Virus record (IMG/VR): IMGVR_UViG_3300035698_017305
Coordinates: 1 to 64,000 of that record
From: a virus
Reading direction: 5' to 3' (one strand)
DNA length: 64,000 nucleotides
Both the position numbers and the translations under genes were made by a program. Each line of letters opens with the position of its first letter. Position 1 is the stretch's first letter. Under the pieces are notes generated by a model. The model ran no database searches, was not told the origin of the DNA, and worked only from the letters and a program-made list of their open reading frames with translations. Of the stretch, positions 4,462 through 54,103 are shown in pieces.

Positions 4462-5028
4462 TTAACCGGGGGTGACATCCCCAATGAGTCTGGCTCTGGG
4501 CAGATACCACTGTTCACCGAACAGCTTGGATGAGTCGTGCATAAACTTGGCCCCTGGGAATGGGTGATCTTCCAGGTCCAGTTCATACTCAGTGACAGAC
4601 CCTGTGTTGTCGATGTCTACCATACCATCCTCATCAGAGGTGCAACCGGGCCCAATGTAGACTCCGAAGCAGTCGCCGTCTTCAAAGAAGTTGACCGCCT
4701 TGCCGAACTCGTTGAGGCCCTTAACGAAGTCTTCCGGGGTGGTGGCACTCTGGTACACAGCCTGACCCAGATCATTGAACACAGCCTGAGCTTTGATCAT
4801 AGTTTCCGCATGTTCCGGGGTTGTGACCAGAAGAACGGGATTCTGTGGGTGAGGCCATAGCACAACCGCCACAGACCCGTTGTAGGAGGCAACCTCTTCC
4901 AACTTGTACTTGAAGAAGGCGCTGTTCATGATCTCATCTGGTGTGTCCATCATGAACTCTTCTAAGTCACCGAAGAAGTAAGTGGTCGGTAGTACTCGTT
5001 TCAATGTAGCGAGAGGTGCGGCTTCCAT
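4462..5028 (-). CDS. Acidic protein of unknown function
   Basis: A 188-residue, strongly acidic soluble protein with two Asp/Glu-rich patches (DEDGMVDIDNTG and ELDLEDHP). The first resembles an EF-hand-like loop, but the spacing is not convincing. The start is ATG behind AGGAG. Its own terminator and an upstream promoter-like element suggest a monocistronic unit. Confidence 0.75.
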   Translation of the reverse strand: MEAAPLATLKRVLPTTYFFGDLEEFMMDTPDEIMNSAFFKYKLEEVASYNGSVAVVLWPHPQNPVLLVTTPEHAETMIKAQAVFNDLGQAVYQSATTPEDFVKGLNEFGKAVNFFEDGDCFGVYIGPGCTSDEDGMVDIDNTGSVTEYELDLEDHPFPGAKFMHDSSKLFGEQWYLPRARLIGDVTPG

Positions 5029-17906: not shown

Positions 17907-17910
17907 TTAT

Positions 17911-18033
17911 GGCGGCGGGAGGAATTGAACCTCCAACCTTCCTAGTCCGTCCAGTGTTCCCAAATCAACAGCATTTGACTACGTGTTGTTTGAAGGACGC
18001 CAAGGATGCATCTACCAATTGAGCTACACCGCC
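17911..18033 (-). tRNA. tRNA-like gene with about 50-nt insertion in the anticodon region
   Basis: The acceptor stem (GGCGGTG/CGCCGCC) and T arm (GGAGG-TTCAATT-CCTCC) are intact and the D arm nearly so (GATGC in place of GAGC). The anticodon arm is expanded to about 60 nt. The insert can fold on its own (GTCC/GGAC closing pair and an inner AACA..TGTT pairing). If TTGGCGT is the loop start the anticodon would be GGC, but this is uncertain. It is either an intron-containing, decayed or recombined tRNA. Confidence 0.55.
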
Positions 18034-31686: not shown

Positions 31687-32040
31687 TGGTGGAGGTGGCG
31701 GGAATCGAACCCGCGTCCGCGAACACTTACCGTGCTCATCTACGTGTGTGTCCAACCTTTCTATCCTGAAAGACATGGTTGGCAACGCTTTCAGGACCCC
31801 ACTGCCTTACCCGTGTGGGGAACACCGGGACGGGTTTTGTCAGCTATTACCCGATACTGACAACCGGGGAGTCTAAGGTGACGTTCTAGCCTACAGCGAC
31901 TCTCCGTAGGTAGACCGCGCTACTCTCTAAGCAGCGATGGGAAGTTGATTTTCGGCAACTATCTAGGTTTGTTCTGTAACGTAGAACATCCGACACGCAA
32001 AGCACGACTCAATTATTCCCGTCGAATCCAGGTCACCCCC
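31687..32040 (-). ncRNA. ssrA: Transfer-messenger RNA (tmRNA)
   Basis: The 5' end GGGGGTGACCTGGATTCGAC and 3' end GGTTCGATTCCCGCCACC + TCCACCA are canonical tmRNA termini; GGGGGTG pairs with CACCTCC and CCA is encoded. The tag frame at 31927-31956 reads Ala-Glu-Asn-Gln-Leu-Pro-Ile-Ala-Ala and stops with TAG. It follows TAGTT, where the resume codon is expected. GC-rich helices downstream fit the pseudoknot ring. tmRNA rescues stalled ribosomes and tags the product for proteolysis. It lies 7 bases after tRNA-Glu on the same strand. Confidence 0.93.
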
Positions 32041-43647: not shown

Positions 43648-44187
43648 ATGGGTAAATTGGAGAGGTATGTTCAGTCACCCAACAGGTTAGACTCCTACAG
43701 GTACCAAGCCATTAAAAGGATATGCAGTGGGCTGTATACCACTGGTAGTACTGCACTGGAGGTCGGCCCAGCAGATGGCACCTTTGCCAGACTGATATCT
43801 GATTTAGGGTTTACCACCACAGCGGTAGACATGGAGAGGAACCCGCAGGTCAGGACTGAAAAGAGAAACGCATACGAGTATGTTATTGTCCCCGGTGGGA
43901 TAGAGAAGTTTGACCATACCCCGTTTGATCTCGTCCATGCTGGGCAAATGCTGGAGCATGTACCCGATCCTTATGAAGTACTATCCCATATCAAGCAATT
44001 GGTTAGGGGGCATATGATCATGACAGTACCGAACTTTCAGATAAAGAGCGGTGAGCACCTAACGGTGTTTACTAAAGAATCAGCTATGGACCTGTTCTCT
44101 AGTTGCTTTGAGGTGACCCACTCAGAAGTGGTGAGGGACCCCAGGAAACATAAAGAGGATTATGTCCTAGTTGGGAGGCCAATATGA
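43648..44187 (+). CDS. Class I SAM-dependent methyltransferase
   Basis: A 179-residue protein. SAM motif I ALEVGPADGTFARL at about residue 35, acidic end of strand 2 AVDME, FDLVHAGQMLEHVPDPYEV (motif II region) and HMIMTVPN. These short enzymes often methylate sugars or other small molecules in glycan clusters. Encoded 11 bases after the GT2-like gene and overlapping the next by ATGA. Confidence 0.85.
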   Translation: MGKLERYVQSPNRLDSYRYQAIKRICSGLYTTGSTALEVGPADGTFARLISDLGFTTTAVDMERNPQVRTEKRNAYEYVIVPGGIEKFDHTPFDLVHAGQMLEHVPDPYEVLSHIKQLVRGHMIMTVPNFQIKSGEHLTVFTKESAMDLFSSCFEVTHSEVVRDPRKHKEDYVLVGRPI

Positions 44188-45209
44188 GCCCTGTTATATC
44201 CAAGAGTGAGCCAGACATTCTAGCACTCCATGCCGCTGGAGGCAGTGGACACTCCGGTGCTTTTCTAAACTATGTAAAGAGACACCATCCAAACTTCTGG
44301 TCCAGGATAGGGATGCGGCGGTTCAACATGTCCAAGGATGCAGCACGAACTGATACGTTTCCGTGTGTGGCTGATAAGTACAAGCTCCTGCTACTATGGT
44401 CCCGTGACAGTCTAGGTCTCACTAACCCAGTACTGCTACAGAGGCTGATGGAGCTGGAGGCTAGAGCTTCCACTAAAGGTGTACCATTCATTAACCCACC
44501 TTCAGCATCTGACTCCACCTCCCGTACAGAGCAGTGCCGGATTTGGTATGAGTATTCTCTGCCCGGCGCTGTAGTTCAGGTATGCCCACGAACACTGGAG
44601 GGGTTCAAACACTTCGGTGACACCTATGGCTGGCCATTCATCATAAAGCGTAACTGGGGGCACGGTGGGGGTGACCACGTACAGCTTATAAGCTGCATTG
44701 AAGACGTGAACCTAGAGTCTATGGTAACTGATCGTGTTTGCATTCAATATGTGGAAACTAAGGGACAAGATGGGCTGTATAGGAAGTACAGAGCTGTCGT
44801 GGTGGGTAATCAAGTCATACCTGCTCATGTACAGATATCTAAAACGTGGATGGTAAATTCCGGATCTCAGGATGTTCCCAGCCAGCTTCTGTCTCAAGAG
44901 ACCAAGGAGTATGTGGATGATGACATGCTACCTCACCTACGCTACAACCTGAAGCTGGCGGTACACACACTAGGCTTGACCATAGGGGCGGTGGACTATT
45001 CCTTTGACGCTAAACACGGTTTGGTGCTGTGGGAGGTCACGCCCTGTTTTTCTTTAGCTGACACTATTAAAAGGTATGGATCCGCTGTGTCTAACCGAGT
45101 GTGTGAGGCTATCTACCGGCATTACAAGACTACGTTGGGGGAAGAGTTTAAGGACTTTGAGCTAAAAAGGAAGTGGCCGTTAGACCACCCCTTTTTGTTA
45201 CGCAGCTAA
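44184..45209 (+). CDS. ATP-grasp family protein
   Basis: A 341-residue protein. WPFIIKRNWGHGGGDHVQL (nucleotide loop), VCIQYVETK, RKYRAVVVGNQVIP and AVDYSFDAKHGLVLWEVTPCF (metal-binding end) follow ATP-grasp order. It probably forms an amide bond or phosphorylates a substrate; partner unknown. It closes the plus-strand glycan operon and converges on the DUF932 gene, overlapping its end by 12 bases. Confidence 0.78.
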   Translation: MSPVISKSEPDILALHAAGGSGHSGAFLNYVKRHHPNFWSRIGMRRFNMSKDAARTDTFPCVADKYKLLLLWSRDSLGLTNPVLLQRLMELEARASTKGVPFINPPSASDSTSRTEQCRIWYEYSLPGAVVQVCPRTLEGFKHFGDTYGWPFIIKRNWGHGGGDHVQLISCIEDVNLESMVTDRVCIQYVETKGQDGLYRKYRAVVVGNQVIPAHVQISKTWMVNSGSQDVPSQLLSQETKEYVDDDMLPHLRYNLKLAVHTLGLTIGAVDYSFDAKHGLVLWEVTPCFSLADTIKRYGSAVSNRVCEAIYRHYKTTLGEEFKDFELKRKWPLDHPFLLRS

Positions 45210-49887: not shown

Positions 49888-51606
49888 TTAGGCTGCTCTA
49901 TCGTCTACGGGCAGTGGTGTGTCCATGATCTCTTGCAGAGTGTTCCTAAGAGTTCTGCGAGACAGGAACCTGATAACATCCGGGACCGCAATGAGGTCAG
50001 TGCTGTCGTCCAGGTTGAACACTTGAATGGCGGTGCCAGCGGTGGCCGCAGCATCACGTACACAGCGGTGTCTCTTGTCTTCCAGACTGCCCCACCTTCC
50101 CAGTTTAATCAAGCAAATACTTACCTCATCTGATCCAGGAGGAGCCGTCTCCAGATACTTGGGCCACACATCCGGGAACCGAGGAGCACTATTCTCTCCT
50201 TCATCCGTGATGATAATGACGTTTTCCGCAAAGTCACCACTCCTCATCATCTCGTCGATGCCTACACCAACAGAGGTGGATCCAAGTGCTCTTACCCTAC
50301 GGAACGCCGTAGTCCAGTCCTGTAGCGTACCTCTGCCCGGTACATTGATCTTGTCGGCTTTCACCTCGAAGGTGTATGTGTGCAGAGGAGTACCCGCAAC
50401 CATGGAGGCCGAAATCATAGACCCCAAGGTCTTGGCCAGCTCGATTGCAGCACCCATGGACGTACTACAGTCAACCAGAAGAACGGTCGGCTTGTTGATA
50501 ACCTTCTTGACGCGGGCGTCAGACACTTGGAGAATTTTCTCCTTGATATCTGCGCTGACAGCGGTAGATTCCGCAGCTTTCACCGCCTTTAAGGTATCAA
50601 CCCGACCAGACTTCTTGGCCTTCTTCAGTCGAGACTCCAAGAGCTTGGCAAGGTCCGGGTTGTCCCATGCACCTTTCTTCCTGAATGCTTCCACATTCAT
50701 CAGAAGCTCCTGAGGAGACATTACACTGATCAGTGCTGCCATAACAGCAGGAGTCTGAGTAGTCACCGAGCCTACCGCGATTGGGTAGGGGATTTTGTAC
50801 TTGGCGATCAATTCAGCCTGCTCAGCAGGGTCACTTGTGGTACTCAGCACCTTCTGGTAGTACAGCTTAGGAGTCCTGTGTTCGAGTGGATTCTTCTCAA
50901 ACAGGGCTGACTGTACCCATCCAACTGGTGGTGTATGCGTCCAACTGTACAGAGACTTCAGTGCGCTACCAGCTCTGACAGCGATGGCATCAAACATTTC
51001 TGTGTTGTCCTCCAGGTCACGGAGTAGGCCACCCACAACCTTGCTGACCCTCTTAGGAATGTTCTTAGCTCCCGGGATACCGGTTACCTGGAACACTGAG
51101 GTCATGTAGGTGCCGTCCCGATTCTTCTCAAACCGGAGGTCTGCATCTTTTGCTCTGGGAATCTTGGCTTTGACCAACCTCAGGAATGCTTCCCGTTCCG
51201 TAGCCGTGGAAGTGCCGTTCCGTAGCTTTGGGTTTAGGTCCGTCTTTGCCTTCATGATGTCCTTGTCGTCAGACAATTTCACCACAACCTTACCTTCCTT
51301 GAGCAGGTTGATGATCCGGTGAATCTCATACACTGGGAACCTGGGCAGTAAGGCAGCCCCAACATCCCTGAACAGGACGTCATCAGGCATACCTCGGAGT
51401 AAGTACGCTGTCATCAGTTCCTTGTGATCCCGGATCTCCGTGTTGTCCATGGCCCATACAGCGAGGTGGGCGAAGAATTCCGGGTCCGCTTCGAACATTG
51501 TCCGGAATAACTCATGAGATCCCTTGCCGATATTCCGGTGTGGAGTACTCATGAAAGCCTTTAGCATGTCCAATCGGACATCAGCTTCTCTGGTTTCGGT
51601 CGCCAT
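49888..51606 (-). CDS. rsr: TROVE-domain protein, Ro60/Rsr homologue
   Basis: A 572-residue protein. The N-terminal and middle parts form the TROVE helical-repeat ring (FRTMFEADPEFFAHLAVWA; YLLRGMPDDVLF; SWTHTPPVGW). The C-terminal vWA-like domain has the MIDAS-like VLLVDCSTSMG and GVGIDEMM. Ro60 proteins bind Y RNAs on the outside of the ring and misfolded RNA ends in the hole, and in bacteria work with PNPase and rRNA maturation. Seven Y-like RNA elements lie directly upstream on the same strand, which supports the call. Confidence 0.92.
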   Translation of the reverse strand: MATETREADVRLDMLKAFMSTPHRNIGKGSHELFRTMFEADPEFFAHLAVWAMDNTEIRDHKELMTAYLLRGMPDDVLFRDVGAALLPRFPVYEIHRIINLLKEGKVVVKLSDDKDIMKAKTDLNPKLRNGTSTATEREAFLRLVKAKIPRAKDADLRFEKNRDGTYMTSVFQVTGIPGAKNIPKRVSKVVGGLLRDLEDNTEMFDAIAVRAGSALKSLYSWTHTPPVGWVQSALFEKNPLEHRTPKLYYQKVLSTTSDPAEQAELIAKYKIPYPIAVGSVTTQTPAVMAALISVMSPQELLMNVEAFRKKGAWDNPDLAKLLESRLKKAKKSGRVDTLKAVKAAESTAVSADIKEKILQVSDARVKKVINKPTVLLVDCSTSMGAAIELAKTLGSMISASMVAGTPLHTYTFEVKADKINVPGRGTLQDWTTAFRRVRALGSTSVGVGIDEMMRSGDFAENVIIITDEGENSAPRFPDVWPKYLETAPPGSDEVSICLIKLGRWGSLEDKRHRCVRDAAATAGTAIQVFNLDDSTDLIAVPDVIRFLSRRTLRNTLQEIMDTPLPVDDRAA

Positions 51607-51651: not shown

Positions 51652-51712
51652 ATAAAAAAAGATCGCAGGAAGTCACCGAGGTAGGTCCAATACCACGGAA
51701 GTGCTTGCGATC
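51652..51712 (-). terminator. Terminator of the Y-like RNA array
   Basis: AGATCGCA / TGCGATCT stem with an inner hairpin (CACTTCCGTGG / ... GACTTC region), followed by TTTTTTT on the minus strand. It ends the array transcript 45 bases before the Ro60 start. Confidence 0.8.
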
Positions 51713-51746
51713 TTCCCCATGTGGGGACTGTCTAATGAATATGGTT

Positions 51747-51825
51747 AGAACAGCTAGCTAGTCGTGGGAACCGTTGTTTTTCGCCAAATGAAAATGTATG
51801 TTCCGACTGTAGGGCTAGCTGTTCT
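51747..51825 (-). ncRNA. Y-like RNA element 1 (no tRNA domain)
   Basis: A perfect 12-bp outer stem (AGAACAGCTAGC / GCTAGCTGTTCT), the conserved internal loop strands CCTACAGTC and CACGACTA, an inner stem GGAAC/GTTCC and a 28-nt unstructured loop. It is the minimal form of the repeat and shows the scaffold stands alone. Confidence 0.8.
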
Positions 51826-51839
51826 TTTCTGACTTGGTT

Positions 51840-51986
51840 TCTGGGGTAGCGAGTCTGTAGGCCCAATTGATTTGTTAGTCTGATCCGTAGTCAGATGCCT
51901 TAACCACTTGGCCACATATGATTTCTCACATGATGGGATTCGAACCCACGTTAAAATGTATGGCCCACATGTAGGGCTACCCTAGA
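51840..51986 (-). ncRNA. Y-like RNA element 2, permuted tRNA-like domain
   Basis: 11-bp outer stem and inner GGCC pairing. The insert reads on the minus strand: T arm (GTGGG-TTCGAAT-CCCAT), acceptor 3' strand CATGTGA, a GAAA tetraloop, acceptor 5' strand TCATATG, D arm, and anticodon arm TCTGA-CTACGGA-TCAGA (ACG). The tRNA is thus opened between its variable region and T arm. Confidence 0.82.
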
Positions 51987-51999
51987 ACTGTATAGTGTT

Positions 52000-52149
52000 T
52001 TTCGAGAGTGCTAGTCGAAGGACCCATTGTAAAACTGGATGCTCTACCATTGAGCTACTTGGGCTCAAGCCCAAGACAGGAATTGAACCTGCGCCTTCCC
52101 CTTGGTATGGGACGTTTGTGTATGGCCCGTCTGTAGGGCACTCTCGAAA
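52000..52149 (-). ncRNA. Y-like RNA element 3, permuted tRNA-like domain
   Basis: Perfect 12-bp outer stem TTTCGAGAGTGC / GCACTCTCGAAA. Insert order: anticodon arm (CCC-ATACCAA-GGG, ACC by position), T arm (GCAGG-TTCAATT-CCTGT), acceptor CTTGGGC, TTGA loop, GCCCAAG, D arm. It is opened between the D and anticodon arms. Confidence 0.8.
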
Positions 52150-52163
52150 TTGTGTATAAATGC

Positions 52164-52317
52164 TATGGAACTAGCGAGTCGTAAAGCCCATTGATCTTTA
52201 ATCGCTTGTGCTAAATACAAGTGCCTTTACCAATTTGGCCACTCTGGGTGAGCCCCAGAGGAAGGATTCGAACCTCCAAAATGATATGTATGGCTTAACT
52301 GTAGGGCTAATTCCATA
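52164..52317 (-). ncRNA. Y-like RNA element 4, permuted tRNA-like domain, anticodon TTA
   Basis: Outer stem TATGGAACTAGC / GCTAATTCCATA (11 of 12 pairs), inner stem AAGCC/GGCTT. Insert order: T arm, acceptor CTCTGGG, GCTCA loop, CCCAGAG, D arm, anticodon arm CTTGT-ATTTAGC-ACAAG, then a variable-arm-like GAT..GATC hairpin. TTA would pair with UAA. Confidence 0.8.
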
Positions 52318-52330
52318 TTGAAACTGTTAA

Positions 52331-52468
52331 GGTGCGGCTAGCTAGTCGAGAGACCCATATTAGGTACACCGAGGTGGAATTGAACCACCGACTTTTTGCT
52401 TAATAGGCAAATGCTCTATCCAACTGAGCTATTGGTATGTATGGCCTAACTGTAGGGCTAACCGAACC
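52331..52468 (-). ncRNA. Y-like RNA element 5 enclosing a linear tRNA
   Basis: Outer stem 10 of 12 pairs, inner stem around GGCC/GACC. The insert is an ordinary-order tRNA at 52366-52438. Confidence 0.78.
52366..52438 (-). tRNA. tRNA or tRNA-like domain, anticodon ATT (Asn codon AAU)
   Basis: 73 nt. Acceptor ATACCAA/TCGGTGT (one A-C mismatch), D stem GCTC/GAGC, anticodon stem TTTGC/GCAAA, loop CTATTAA, T arm GGTGG-TTCAATT-CCACC. A34 is unusual for Asn, where GTT is expected, so it may be a mimic. Confidence 0.7.
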
Positions 52469-52492
52469 TATATTTGATTTCCAAAGAACTGA

Positions 52493-52664
52493 ACATTAGA
52501 GAAGATGGGGCAGCTAGTCGAGAGATCCCAAGTAACTTAACTAAGCTACTCCCCCGTAGTGGTGGGGGAGGCTGGAATTGAACCAGCGACACTTTACTTT
52601 CACGTAAATGCTCTACCATTGTTTGTATGATCCAACTGTAGGGCTACCTCATCATCTCTAATGT
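52493..52664 (-). ncRNA. Y-like RNA element 6, tRNA-like domain opened in the D loop
   Basis: The longest outer stem (20 of 22 pairs) and an inner GATC pairing. Insert order: D-arm 3' half (AATGGTAGAGC), anticodon arm (TTTAC-GTGAAA-GTAAA, GAA-like), T arm, acceptor CTCCCCC, loop ACCACTAC (contains ACCA), GGGGGAG, then D-arm 5' half TAGCTTAGTT. Confidence 0.8.
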
Positions 52665-52674
52665 CAAAGAATTA

Positions 52675-52810
52675 AACTGTGAGCGGGTAACTAGTCGAAG
52701 GGCCTTTGTAACGTTCTGCTTCATCAGCAGCCCCCGTATGGTGGAGGCTCAGGGAGTTAAACCCCGAACTGTTATGTACGGTCCCACTGTAGGGTTACCC
52801 CGTCACAGTT
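52675..52810 (-). ncRNA. Y-like RNA element 7, reduced tRNA-like domain
   Basis: Outer stem 15 of 17 pairs, inner stem GGGCC/GGTCC. Insert: T arm (CGGGG-TTTAACT-CCCTG), acceptor AGCCTCC with ACCA in the loop and GGGGGCT, then a CTGCT/AGCAG hairpin in place of D and anticodon arms. Its 5' end touches the stop codon of 52809-53036. Confidence 0.75.
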
Positions 52811-53036
52811 ATTTACCGAACTTACCGTCTGGCCTCAAGTGTACTGTGCCGGACGCTTCAAATGGGTCTGCAACAAACGAGTTGAATGTTGAGACGTCTT
52901 TGCTGAGTGCACCGGCTACTGCCAGCTTAAGGTCTGCTTCATCGAAGACATCTCCTAAGTCCAACTCCTCCACTGGGAGTGTTTGGGATTGTCCGTCAAC
53001 GAACACGTTTATGAATTGGAAGTTATTACGTTCCAT
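52809..53036 (-). CDS. Possible second ubiquitin-like (beta-grasp) protein
   Basis: 75 residues from the ATG at 53036 with AAGGAG upstream. Pattern: strand FQFINVFVDGQ, strand SQTLPVEEL, helix DEADLKLAVAGALS, strands with FVADPFE and GTVHLRPDGKFGK. This fits a small beta-grasp fold, and single-domain Ubls in E1/JAB operons often end in ..KFG. There is no Gly-Gly. It lies upstream of the Y-like array and in the same direction as E1-2 and JAB-2. Confidence 0.45.
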   Translation of the reverse strand: MERNNFQFINVFVDGQSQTLPVEELDLGDVFDEADLKLAVAGALSKDVSTFNSFVADPFEASGTVHLRPDGKFGK

Positions 53037-53083: not shown

Positions 53084-54103
53084 TCAAGAACTTTTTATTT
53101 TTGATTTCCCCCACATGACCGGTGCAGGTTTTCCGTCCTTGAGTATGGGCTTAGCCTTGTGTTTCTTCTTTGGCCTGGGGGGAGGGGCTGGTAGCTTGTC
53201 AGACTTCCTGATCTTATCCAACGTTAGCTTAGCCACGGCCTCTCCTATAGCCAGTGCCTGTGAGTCCCTGGGGAATAGATGGCGTTTACCATCAGATAAC
53301 CCGTAGTGCCGGTTACCTTCCCAGAATATATAGCTACCATCCCGTAGTTTACTGTAGTCTAGTGCTACGAAATCGTGTCCGAGCAGTTGGCCCGCCCGCA
53401 ATACTTGATCAGCATTAGGCTCACCGCCCCTCAAGAACATCCTGTCCTCGTGCAGGGCCTGTGGGTGTGTAAGTGTATCCCTCATGTGAACGTTCCACTT
53501 GTCAGCGACAACCAACTGGCGCAGAATCAGTTGATCTCCTATGACAAACGTTCTCCACTTCCGGTAGTATCCATCTTCACTCTGGTAATCTGCATACTTG
53601 ATAGCCAGGGTTAGCTTTACCCTACTGTCTTTGATTACCTTAGCCGCCTCTTTACTGTTGTGTACGAGGTGCATGTGACGGCCACCATGGTCACTGTCTC
53701 TTCTTAGAATGGCTGGGTAGCCAATAGATAGAGCAGTGAATGATGAGAACAGTTGATGCTGCGGAGTTGGGATACCATTATCTTCCCACACCCTATACAT
53801 CGTAGAGTGTTTGTTATCGAACTTACTGATTGGTTGTATCACAGGCAGGCCAATCTCGCGTGCCCGGACTTCTATCTGTTTGGCTTTGGAGAGGTACTCT
53901 TGCTTGGCTCCATACGACCAGAACAAGATCGCATCATAGTCGAACAACTTGGGCATGGCCGTGAACTGGGGACATATAGTTGTCCATTTCAGCCCAGCCT
54001 TTTGAAACCCGTCAGTCAGGGATTTACCTGCGGGGTTACGGGTAAACATCGCTTCTGTGTTAGTTACCACTAGAACTCTAGGTCCCTGACCGACTGGTGC
54101 CAT
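53084..54103 (-). CDS. ATP-grasp family protein
   Basis: A 339-residue protein. YPAILRRDSDHGGRHMHLV (nucleotide loop), LAIKYADYQSEDGYYRKWRTFVIGD, FVALDYSKLRDGSYIFWEGN (metal end). A basic Pro/Lys-rich tail follows (PPPRPKKKHKAK). It resembles the ATP-grasp protein at 44184-45209 (both have a G-Y/LYRKYR/W block), so they may act on the same type of glycan or peptide. Confidence 0.75.
   Translation of the reverse strand: MAPVGQGPRVLVVTNTEAMFTRNPAGKSLTDGFQKAGLKWTTICPQFTAMPKLFDYDAILFWSYGAKQEYLSKAKQIEVRAREIGLPVIQPISKFDNKHSTMYRVWEDNGIPTPQHQLFSSFTALSIGYPAILRRDSDHGGRHMHLVHNSKEAAKVIKDSRVKLTLAIKYADYQSEDGYYRKWRTFVIGDQLILRQLVVADKWNVHMRDTLTHPQALHEDRMFLRGGEPNADQVLRAGQLLGHDFVALDYSKLRDGSYIFWEGNRHYGLSDGKRHLFPRDSQALAIGEAVAKLTLDKIRKSDKLPAPPPRPKKKHKAKPILKDGKPAPVMWGKSKIKSS

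Follow-up and report, generated by a model that had tools for sequence, protein, structure and literature searches.

Seven predicted Y RNAs with permuted tRNA-shaped domains beside a phage Ro60 gene

The stretch of viral DNA analysed here (the window: 64,000 nucleotides, positions 1 to 64,000 of the IMG/VR record IMGVR_UViG_3300035698_017305) contains on its minus strand, from position 52808 to 51746, seven tandem elements (E7 to E1) flanked by a gene for a small protein and a gene for a Ro60/TROVE protein. Our analysis indicates that the array very probably consists of seven Y RNAs beside a phage Ro60, in which a Y module is combined with a permuted tRNA-shaped domain, and that a role as decoys or tethers is to be preferred for them. 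As judged from sequence, the elements almost certainly belong with the YrlA-type Y RNAs of bacteria, as a differing variant, and are predicted ligands of Ro60.

Organization of the array and the shared Y module

The gene of the 75-amino-acid small protein, the array and the Ro60-like gene, which begins 140 nt downstream of the array, are all transcribed in the same direction. The elements, in the order of their transcription, are as follows.

52685–52808, minus strand: E7, transcribed first; Y module around a T arm, an acceptor stem of 7 bp with the loop ACCATAC, and a small hairpin, without D or anticodon arm
52502–52655, minus strand: E6; Y module around a complete tRNA opened in the D loop (from arms, fold and motif pairing)
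52328–52471, minus strand: E5; Y module around a normally ordered tRNA (tRNA at 52363–52438)
52160–52319, minus strand: E4; contains a tRNA with its opening at the variable region, the cap GCTCA and UUA as loop anticodon (from arms, ARAGORN on the joined insert and fold)
51998–52151, minus strand: E3; contains a tRNA with its opening at the D/anticodon junction and the cap TTGA (from arms, fold and a sub-threshold YrlA match)
51838–51989, minus strand: E2; contains a tRNA with its opening at the variable region, the cap GAAA and ACG as anticodon (from arms, ARAGORN on the joined insert and fold)
51746–51826, minus strand: E1; Y module with a short closing loop and no tRNA domain, a bare hairpin (from motif pairing, the bacterial model and fold)

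In all seven elements the 5′ side contains CCCTACA, the 3′ side contains [AC]GACT[AC]G, and [AG]TACA stands directly within the inner stem. The Y module comprises an outer stem, a conserved internal loop (CCCUAC facing GACU-G), an inner stem and then UACA, and is likely to be the site at which Ro60 binds. For the analysis of pairing, elements were picked by motif alone (CCCTACA ... [AC]GACT[AC]G), without any stem criterion. The nine outer-stem pairs adjacent to the motifs are paired in register in 92% of cases as against 57% when arms are swapped between elements; the true assignment of 5′ to 3′ arms is the best among all 5,040 permutations, and compensatory pairs occur at several positions of the outer stems. 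An earlier sequence-only reading of this DNA had placed seven tandem elements here and had described covariation of their stems, and both descriptions are borne out. Its outer stems of up to 22 bp are too long, as the well-paired part covers only about 9–14 bp. Compared with dinucleotide shuffles, six of the seven elements fold much better (z from −2.5 to −6.5), and E7 does so less clearly (z −1.9). In the rest of the 133-kb contig the module scan gives a single false match (4674–4921), which is coding and lies at the scan threshold.

Permuted tRNA-shaped domains

The second module is a tRNA-shaped domain that is opened at varying points of the chain and closed at the acceptor end. E2 and E4 begin with the T arm and continue with acceptor, cap, D arm and anticodon arm; E3 has the order anticodon arm, T arm, capped acceptor and D arm; and in E6, where the anticodon loop has 6 nt, it is the 3′ half of the D arm, anticodon arm, T arm, capped acceptor and the 5′ half of the D arm. 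When each insert was joined head to tail and then scanned with ARAGORN, tRNAs were recovered from E2 (Arg, ACG), from E4 (UUA) and also from permuted elements of other phages, and none of 300 shuffled inserts passed the same rule. The tRNAs of E3 and E6 are clear from their arms and folds and are not robust in ARAGORN. The tRNA enclosed in E5 is a tRNA-Asn with anticodon AUU (60.8 bits). Arms and folds, with ARAGORN for E2 and E4, agree with the three opening sites that had been read from the sequence (variable region, D/anticodon junction, D loop), as well as with a partial domain in E7, a normal order in E5 and no tRNA in E1. The short acceptor caps named in that reading are present in E2 (GAAA), E3 (TTGA) and E4 (GCTCA); those of E6 (ACCACTAC) and E7 (ACCATAC) are different ones. 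Since the acceptor end is closed, the tRNA domain would not be chargeable as encoded. An encoded CCA was considered as a conserved feature and dropped, being found in some phage elements only.

Relation to YrlA and to vertebrate Y RNAs

YrlA has been described as a Ro60-binding stem joined to a domain that resembles three arms of a tRNA, namely D, T and acceptor (PMC8394870), and its Rfam consensus (RF02553) has the order T arm, capped acceptor, D arm. This order is a trait in common with the window array, and a domain with T arm, capped acceptor stem and D arm is present in E2, E3, E4 and E6; E5 has the normal order, E7 is partial and E1 has none of it, and most of the window domains have an anticodon arm in addition. 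As in the rsr-yrlBA-rtcBA locus of Salmonella Typhimurium, a Ro60 orthologue adjoins the window array and the ends of each RNA pair into a long stem. Two features of bacterial Y RNAs are found here as well: an encoded position beside a Ro60 orthologue, which the window array shares with arrays of other phages and of bacteria, and a stem of the two pairing ends that contains a conserved internal loop. The window array departs from YrlA in its variable openings, its seven tandem copies and its scores below the RF02553 cut-off. E3 matches YrlA over its full length (52016–52115; 36.4 bits, cut-off 69), E6 matches weakly (25.2 bits), and the bacterial arrays tested likewise stay below the cut-off.

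A resemblance of the 3′ strand to vertebrate Y RNAs had also been suggested from the sequence, and this link is not upheld. The Rfam results report no match of the window sequence to the vertebrate Y RNA family; the relatives have AACUUG(G/C), as in the YrlA consensus AaAcUuG, rather than the vertebrate-like UUGACUAG; and homology of bacterial Y RNAs to the vertebrate clades is denied in the literature (PMC4726728). The 3′ internal strand of the YrlA consensus (aAaAcUuG) is close to the AACUUGG of phage and bacterial relatives. Earlier work has reported TROVE proteins from jumbo phages as well as YrlA from phages (PMC7824862; PMC7765460), and the main text of the huge-phage paper makes no mention of Ro60, TROVE or Y RNA (PMC7162821).

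Relatives in phages and bacteria

At the level of sequence, the window array belongs, as a divergent member, to a set of RNAs that are linked to Ro60 and are widespread, because both a module scan and an independent covariance model find relatives. Searching viral contigs with the single Ro60 sequence found no relatives; profile searches with two sequences gave 9 contigs and with nine sequences 17 contigs, to which the 595-kb phage LR756511 (W01, locus L027) was added. The bacterial sample comprises the best 80 of 200 Ro60 stretches, mainly from Planctomycetes, Cyanobacteria and Chloroflexi. BLASTN of the array against phages returned ordinary tRNA similarity only, and a search of viral contigs for a 15-base motif gave 26 scattered matches, which were put aside and for the most part served as negative controls.

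The descriptor scan for the Y module found 56 elements in 14 phage loci (the window included) and 233 elements in 69 bacterial loci, as against 3 matches in 505 kb of control sequence. In other phage contigs, too, the module precedes Ro60, and of the 233 bacterial matches 200 are located no more than 3 kb upstream of it. Arrays of 1–8 elements occupy this position in most of the 80 bacterial loci, so that the earlier statement that such an array is undescribed was too strong as far as arrays as such are concerned. Both arm orders are mixed in 22 of 62 bacterial loci. A covariance model built solely from 21 short bacterial elements beside Ro60 has compensatory changes at 14 of 16 pairs. It recovers phage elements with E-values down to 1.8e-9 and scores up to 51.9 bits, and gives no match in 370 kb of controls. 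The recovered elements include the window's E1, with 22.2 bits and an E-value of 1.1e-4 for the region or 0.038 for 266 kb. One contig (L062; G003 coordinates 52600–52765) has a YrlA-like RNA with a permuted tRNA (27.8 bits) about 8 kb upstream of Ro60, and an array adjoining Ro60 seems to be absent there.

Anticodons of the Y-borne domains

An adenosine at anticodon position 34 (A34), in anticodons other than ACG, is present in 12 of 76 Y-borne tRNA domains and in 1 of 177 ordinary tRNAs of the phages (p 2.8e-6; p 0.001 in phages alone), in a comparison that pools related sequences and different hosts. The normal-order element closest to Ro60 has arms that are alike by eye in L027, L028, L031 and L035, and its anticodon is UGU, UAG, AUU and UAG, respectively. 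Such a change of anticodon among look-alike elements is not what decoding tRNAs do. Ordinary tRNAs with the same anticodons as the Y-borne domains are present in phage W01.

Inside-out elements of huge phages

In five phage contigs (L027, L028, L031, L035 and L159) about 12 tRNA genes contain the Y module, in most cases within the D loop; a short loop, often GAAA, closes the outer stem. Examples, among others, are given below.

Inside-out tRNAs: L027 3794–3922; L028 7395–7533; L031 6231–6362; L035 4833–4960; L159 4990–5140

Removal of the module restores a tRNA spanning the junction in 10 of 17 cases as against 2 of 48 control excisions, where a case was counted if ARAGORN found the junction-spanning tRNA in at least 10 of 210 excision variants. 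One and the same object thus exists in two layouts, which differ in whether the ends lie at the Y stem or at the acceptor stem. To our knowledge, a chimera of tRNA and Y RNA of this kind has no precedent. The window has no inside-out elements, and a strict scan of the 80 bacterial loci gave none with a T arm. Two further matches (L027 6754 and L035 6597) were discounted as joins of neighbouring elements. A role of inside-out tRNAs in completing the tRNA set of the phage was rejected on the ordinary copies in phage W01, and the idea that they always have standard anticodons was dropped on an AUU case in L159.

Pieces of 23S rRNA in Y elements of relatives

A match to E. coli 23S rRNA at E<0.01 is present in 19 of 307 inserts, as against 1.8 in shuffles; the matches are short and leave the rest of each domain without explanation, and loci of the same class are related and do not count as independent events. 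In ten cyanobacterial elements the sarcin-ricin loop AGUACGAGAGGA stands directly after the UACA core, and most of these also have a segment of the L11/GTPase centre. Rfam large-subunit rRNA models score 50–54 bits in three of them (cut-off 50) and 32–38 bits in the L158 element. Outside E. coli rRNA, all sarcin-ricin matches are within Y elements. The helix-69 region (23S positions 1903–1935) is present in nine other cyanobacterial elements and in one of phage LR756511. The sarcin-ricin elements are mostly downstream of Ro60, and the helix-69 elements are in the array upstream of it.

Sarcin-ricin elements: L107 5483–5687; L110 7463–7663; L111 8385–8585; L113 8606–8815; L115 7463–7664
Sarcin-ricin elements: L117 8428–8645; L135 11064–11310; L142 2794–3004; L150 8642–8844; L158 10604–10822
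Helix-69 elements: L119 3395–3579; L109 3866–4053; L145 3459–3681; L114 4130–4315; L150 3792–3973
Helix-69 elements: L143 5513–5708; L136 4208–4404; L140 3992–4181; L113 3972–4151
Helix-69 element of the huge phage LR756511: L027 4681–4999, with a 274-nt insert

Compact matches to transfer-messenger RNA (tmRNA) lie upstream of two Y arrays (L117 3263–3346 and L150 3189–3272; 35–37 bits, cut-off 47). They were rejected as Y-borne domains, as they are not within a recognised Y module.

The Ro60 gene and its neighbourhood

The features that flank the array are the following.

49888–51606, minus strand: Ro60/TROVE protein of 572 amino acids with TROVE-type helical repeats and a vWA-like domain (by profile and predicted fold)
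51653–51713, minus strand: branched hairpin and seven U, a likely terminator or attenuator between the array and Ro60 (z −3.2; 0 of 200 shuffles fold equally well)
52809–53036, minus strand: 75-amino-acid small protein upstream of the array, with a beta-grasp-like predicted topology (fold match not significant)

Identification of the window protein as Ro60/TROVE is supported by profile and by predicted fold. The protein matches PHROG 850 ('RNA-binding protein') with an E-value of 8.7e-10, and a profile of ten Ro60 relatives finds RO60 and TROVE proteins as its sole matches in the PDB (E 4e-4 to 9e-4). The predicted model is of moderate confidence (predicted local distance difference test, pLDDT, 76.5; predicted template modelling score, pTM, 0.52). 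Its ten best fold matches are all Ro60/TROVE proteins, including the Ro60 of Thermus phage phiLo; the top matches are Ro60 with a probability of 1.00 and template modelling scores of only 0.25–0.37, so that the placement of the domains is not fixed. Residues D379, S381 and S383 of the metal site (DxSxS) in the vWA-like domain are invariant. With the module kept beside Ro60 in phages and bacteria, the proposal that Y-like RNAs adjoin a Ro60 homologue here is upheld.

Homologues of the 75-amino-acid protein are located upstream of Ro60 in other phages, and Pfam gives mostly no matches for the neighbours of Ro60. On the minus strand, the window between 47014 and 53036 encodes the beta-grasp-like small protein, a vWA protein, a ThiF/E1-like enzyme and a weak match to a JAB peptidase (below cut-off), a gene set that resembles a ubiquitin-like conjugation operon; a JAB protein is also encoded at L035 13755–14204. 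Two proteins (window 53084–54103 and 44184–45209) resemble each other and ATP-grasp proteins by eye and have no Pfam match. The phage is rich in tRNAs. One of them (17910–18033, minus strand; 39.9 bits) has an anticodon arm enlarged by some 50 nt, an insertion that is not a Y module, and adjoins a tRNA with anticodon CUA. A tmRNA gene (31687–32040; 126 bits, tag AENQLPIAA) lies next to a tRNA-Glu.

Discussion

We propose that Ro60 would bind the Y module, that the RNAs would be stable, and that the mimic domains may engage tRNA-recognising enzymes and, in relatives, also rRNA-recognising ones. The elements would then serve as decoys or tethers for enzymes acting on tRNA and rRNA, such as host defence nucleases and RNA-processing enzymes. 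The slot holds tRNA or pieces of ribosomal centres, whose common trait is recognition by enzymes of the translation RNAs, and a role in mimicry is therefore preferred. Several observations weigh against this interpretation. No window element attains the RF02553 gathering score, the best being E3, and the bacterial covariance model detects only E1 among the divergent window elements. The Pfam TROVE model gives no match to the window Ro60 protein, the A34 comparison is a pooled one, no rRNA mimic was found in the window, and the decoy or tether role is argued by analogy.

Permuted tRNA genes of algae and archaea also have the 3′ half before the 5′ half, joined at the acceptor end, as in the window elements. 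It could be asked whether the Y scaffold is likewise a processing module, the caps being cut and the inner ends joined so that functional tRNAs are released, as the sequence-only reading had offered as an alternative. Complete tRNAs do emerge after rotation, ACCA is present within some caps (E6, E7, L028 6900–7058), and some larger phages have RNA ligases. However, in contrast to those genes, the window elements hold their inner ends in a conserved Y module, are opened at several sites, and have no sign of splicing, and some of them contain partial or no tRNA. Their anticodons drift to forms that bacteria normally avoid (AUU, AAU, AAG), phage W01 has ordinary tRNAs for the same anticodons, RtcB was not found in 11 records, and no ligase family was found in the contig of the window, which is incomplete. 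The inside-out elements and the 23S rRNA pieces of relatives favour mimics or decoys over release of tRNAs, which we regard as very unlikely. That the array is a decayed tRNA cluster with chance inverted repeats would suit a tRNA-rich phage, but it is already contradicted by in-register pairing in all copies, by covariation and by conservation with Ro60 across phyla, and can practically be discarded.

The two halves of the preferred role can also be taken separately. The Y RNA/Rsr/PNPase assembly of Deinococcus radiodurans (RYPER) has the same two modules as the window elements, a Ro60-binding stem and an effector domain. If the tRNA-like domain did nothing but recruit PNPase or another RNase to Ro60 in this manner, the diversity of openings would be neutral drift, in keeping with the known role of bacterial Y RNAs with PNPase (PMC8394870; PMC4726728) and with the relaxed anticodons. 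The window array, unlike RYPER, has many copies with different effector domains; tethering by itself, which leaves up to eight different domains per locus and 23S rRNA domains in the same slot unexplained, seems rather unlikely. A purely decoy function, in which the elements are uncleavable or sacrificial copies of the targets of translation-attacking host defences (anticodon nucleases and similar), is a candidate that we hold tentatively. Phage tRNAs such as the T5 tRNA-Tyr counter tRNA-cleaving defences (PMC11555353), Wolin and colleagues have proposed YrlA as a competitive inhibitor of anticodon nuclease (PMC7790460), and relatives mimic helix 69, the sarcin-ricin loop and the GTPase centre. 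The window elements resemble anti-defence tRNAs in being phage-borne, tRNA-shaped and clustered; those tRNAs, in contrast, are ordinary and chargeable, and the domains in the window are enclosed in Y RNAs. Against decoys alone stand the presence of elements in bacterial chromosomes and the existence of E1 and other short elements that hold no target.

The presence of tRNA-like and ribosome-like pieces on the same docking stem, in many bacteria and in huge phages, suggests that Ro60 collects mimics of the translation machinery. It is conceivable, although we would not yet count on it, that Ro60 and the Y module form a general display system for such mimics, acting as decoys against translation-attacking enzymes and carrying tRNAs opened anywhere, 23S rRNA centres and inside-out tRNAs, the last with free and possibly chargeable ends. 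With these arrays it becomes testable why Ro60 and tRNA-like Y RNAs are kept by bacteria and phages, and the displayed tRNA permutations, together with the pieces of helix 69 and of the ribosomal factor-binding centre in relatives, indicate which enzymes would be expected to bind.
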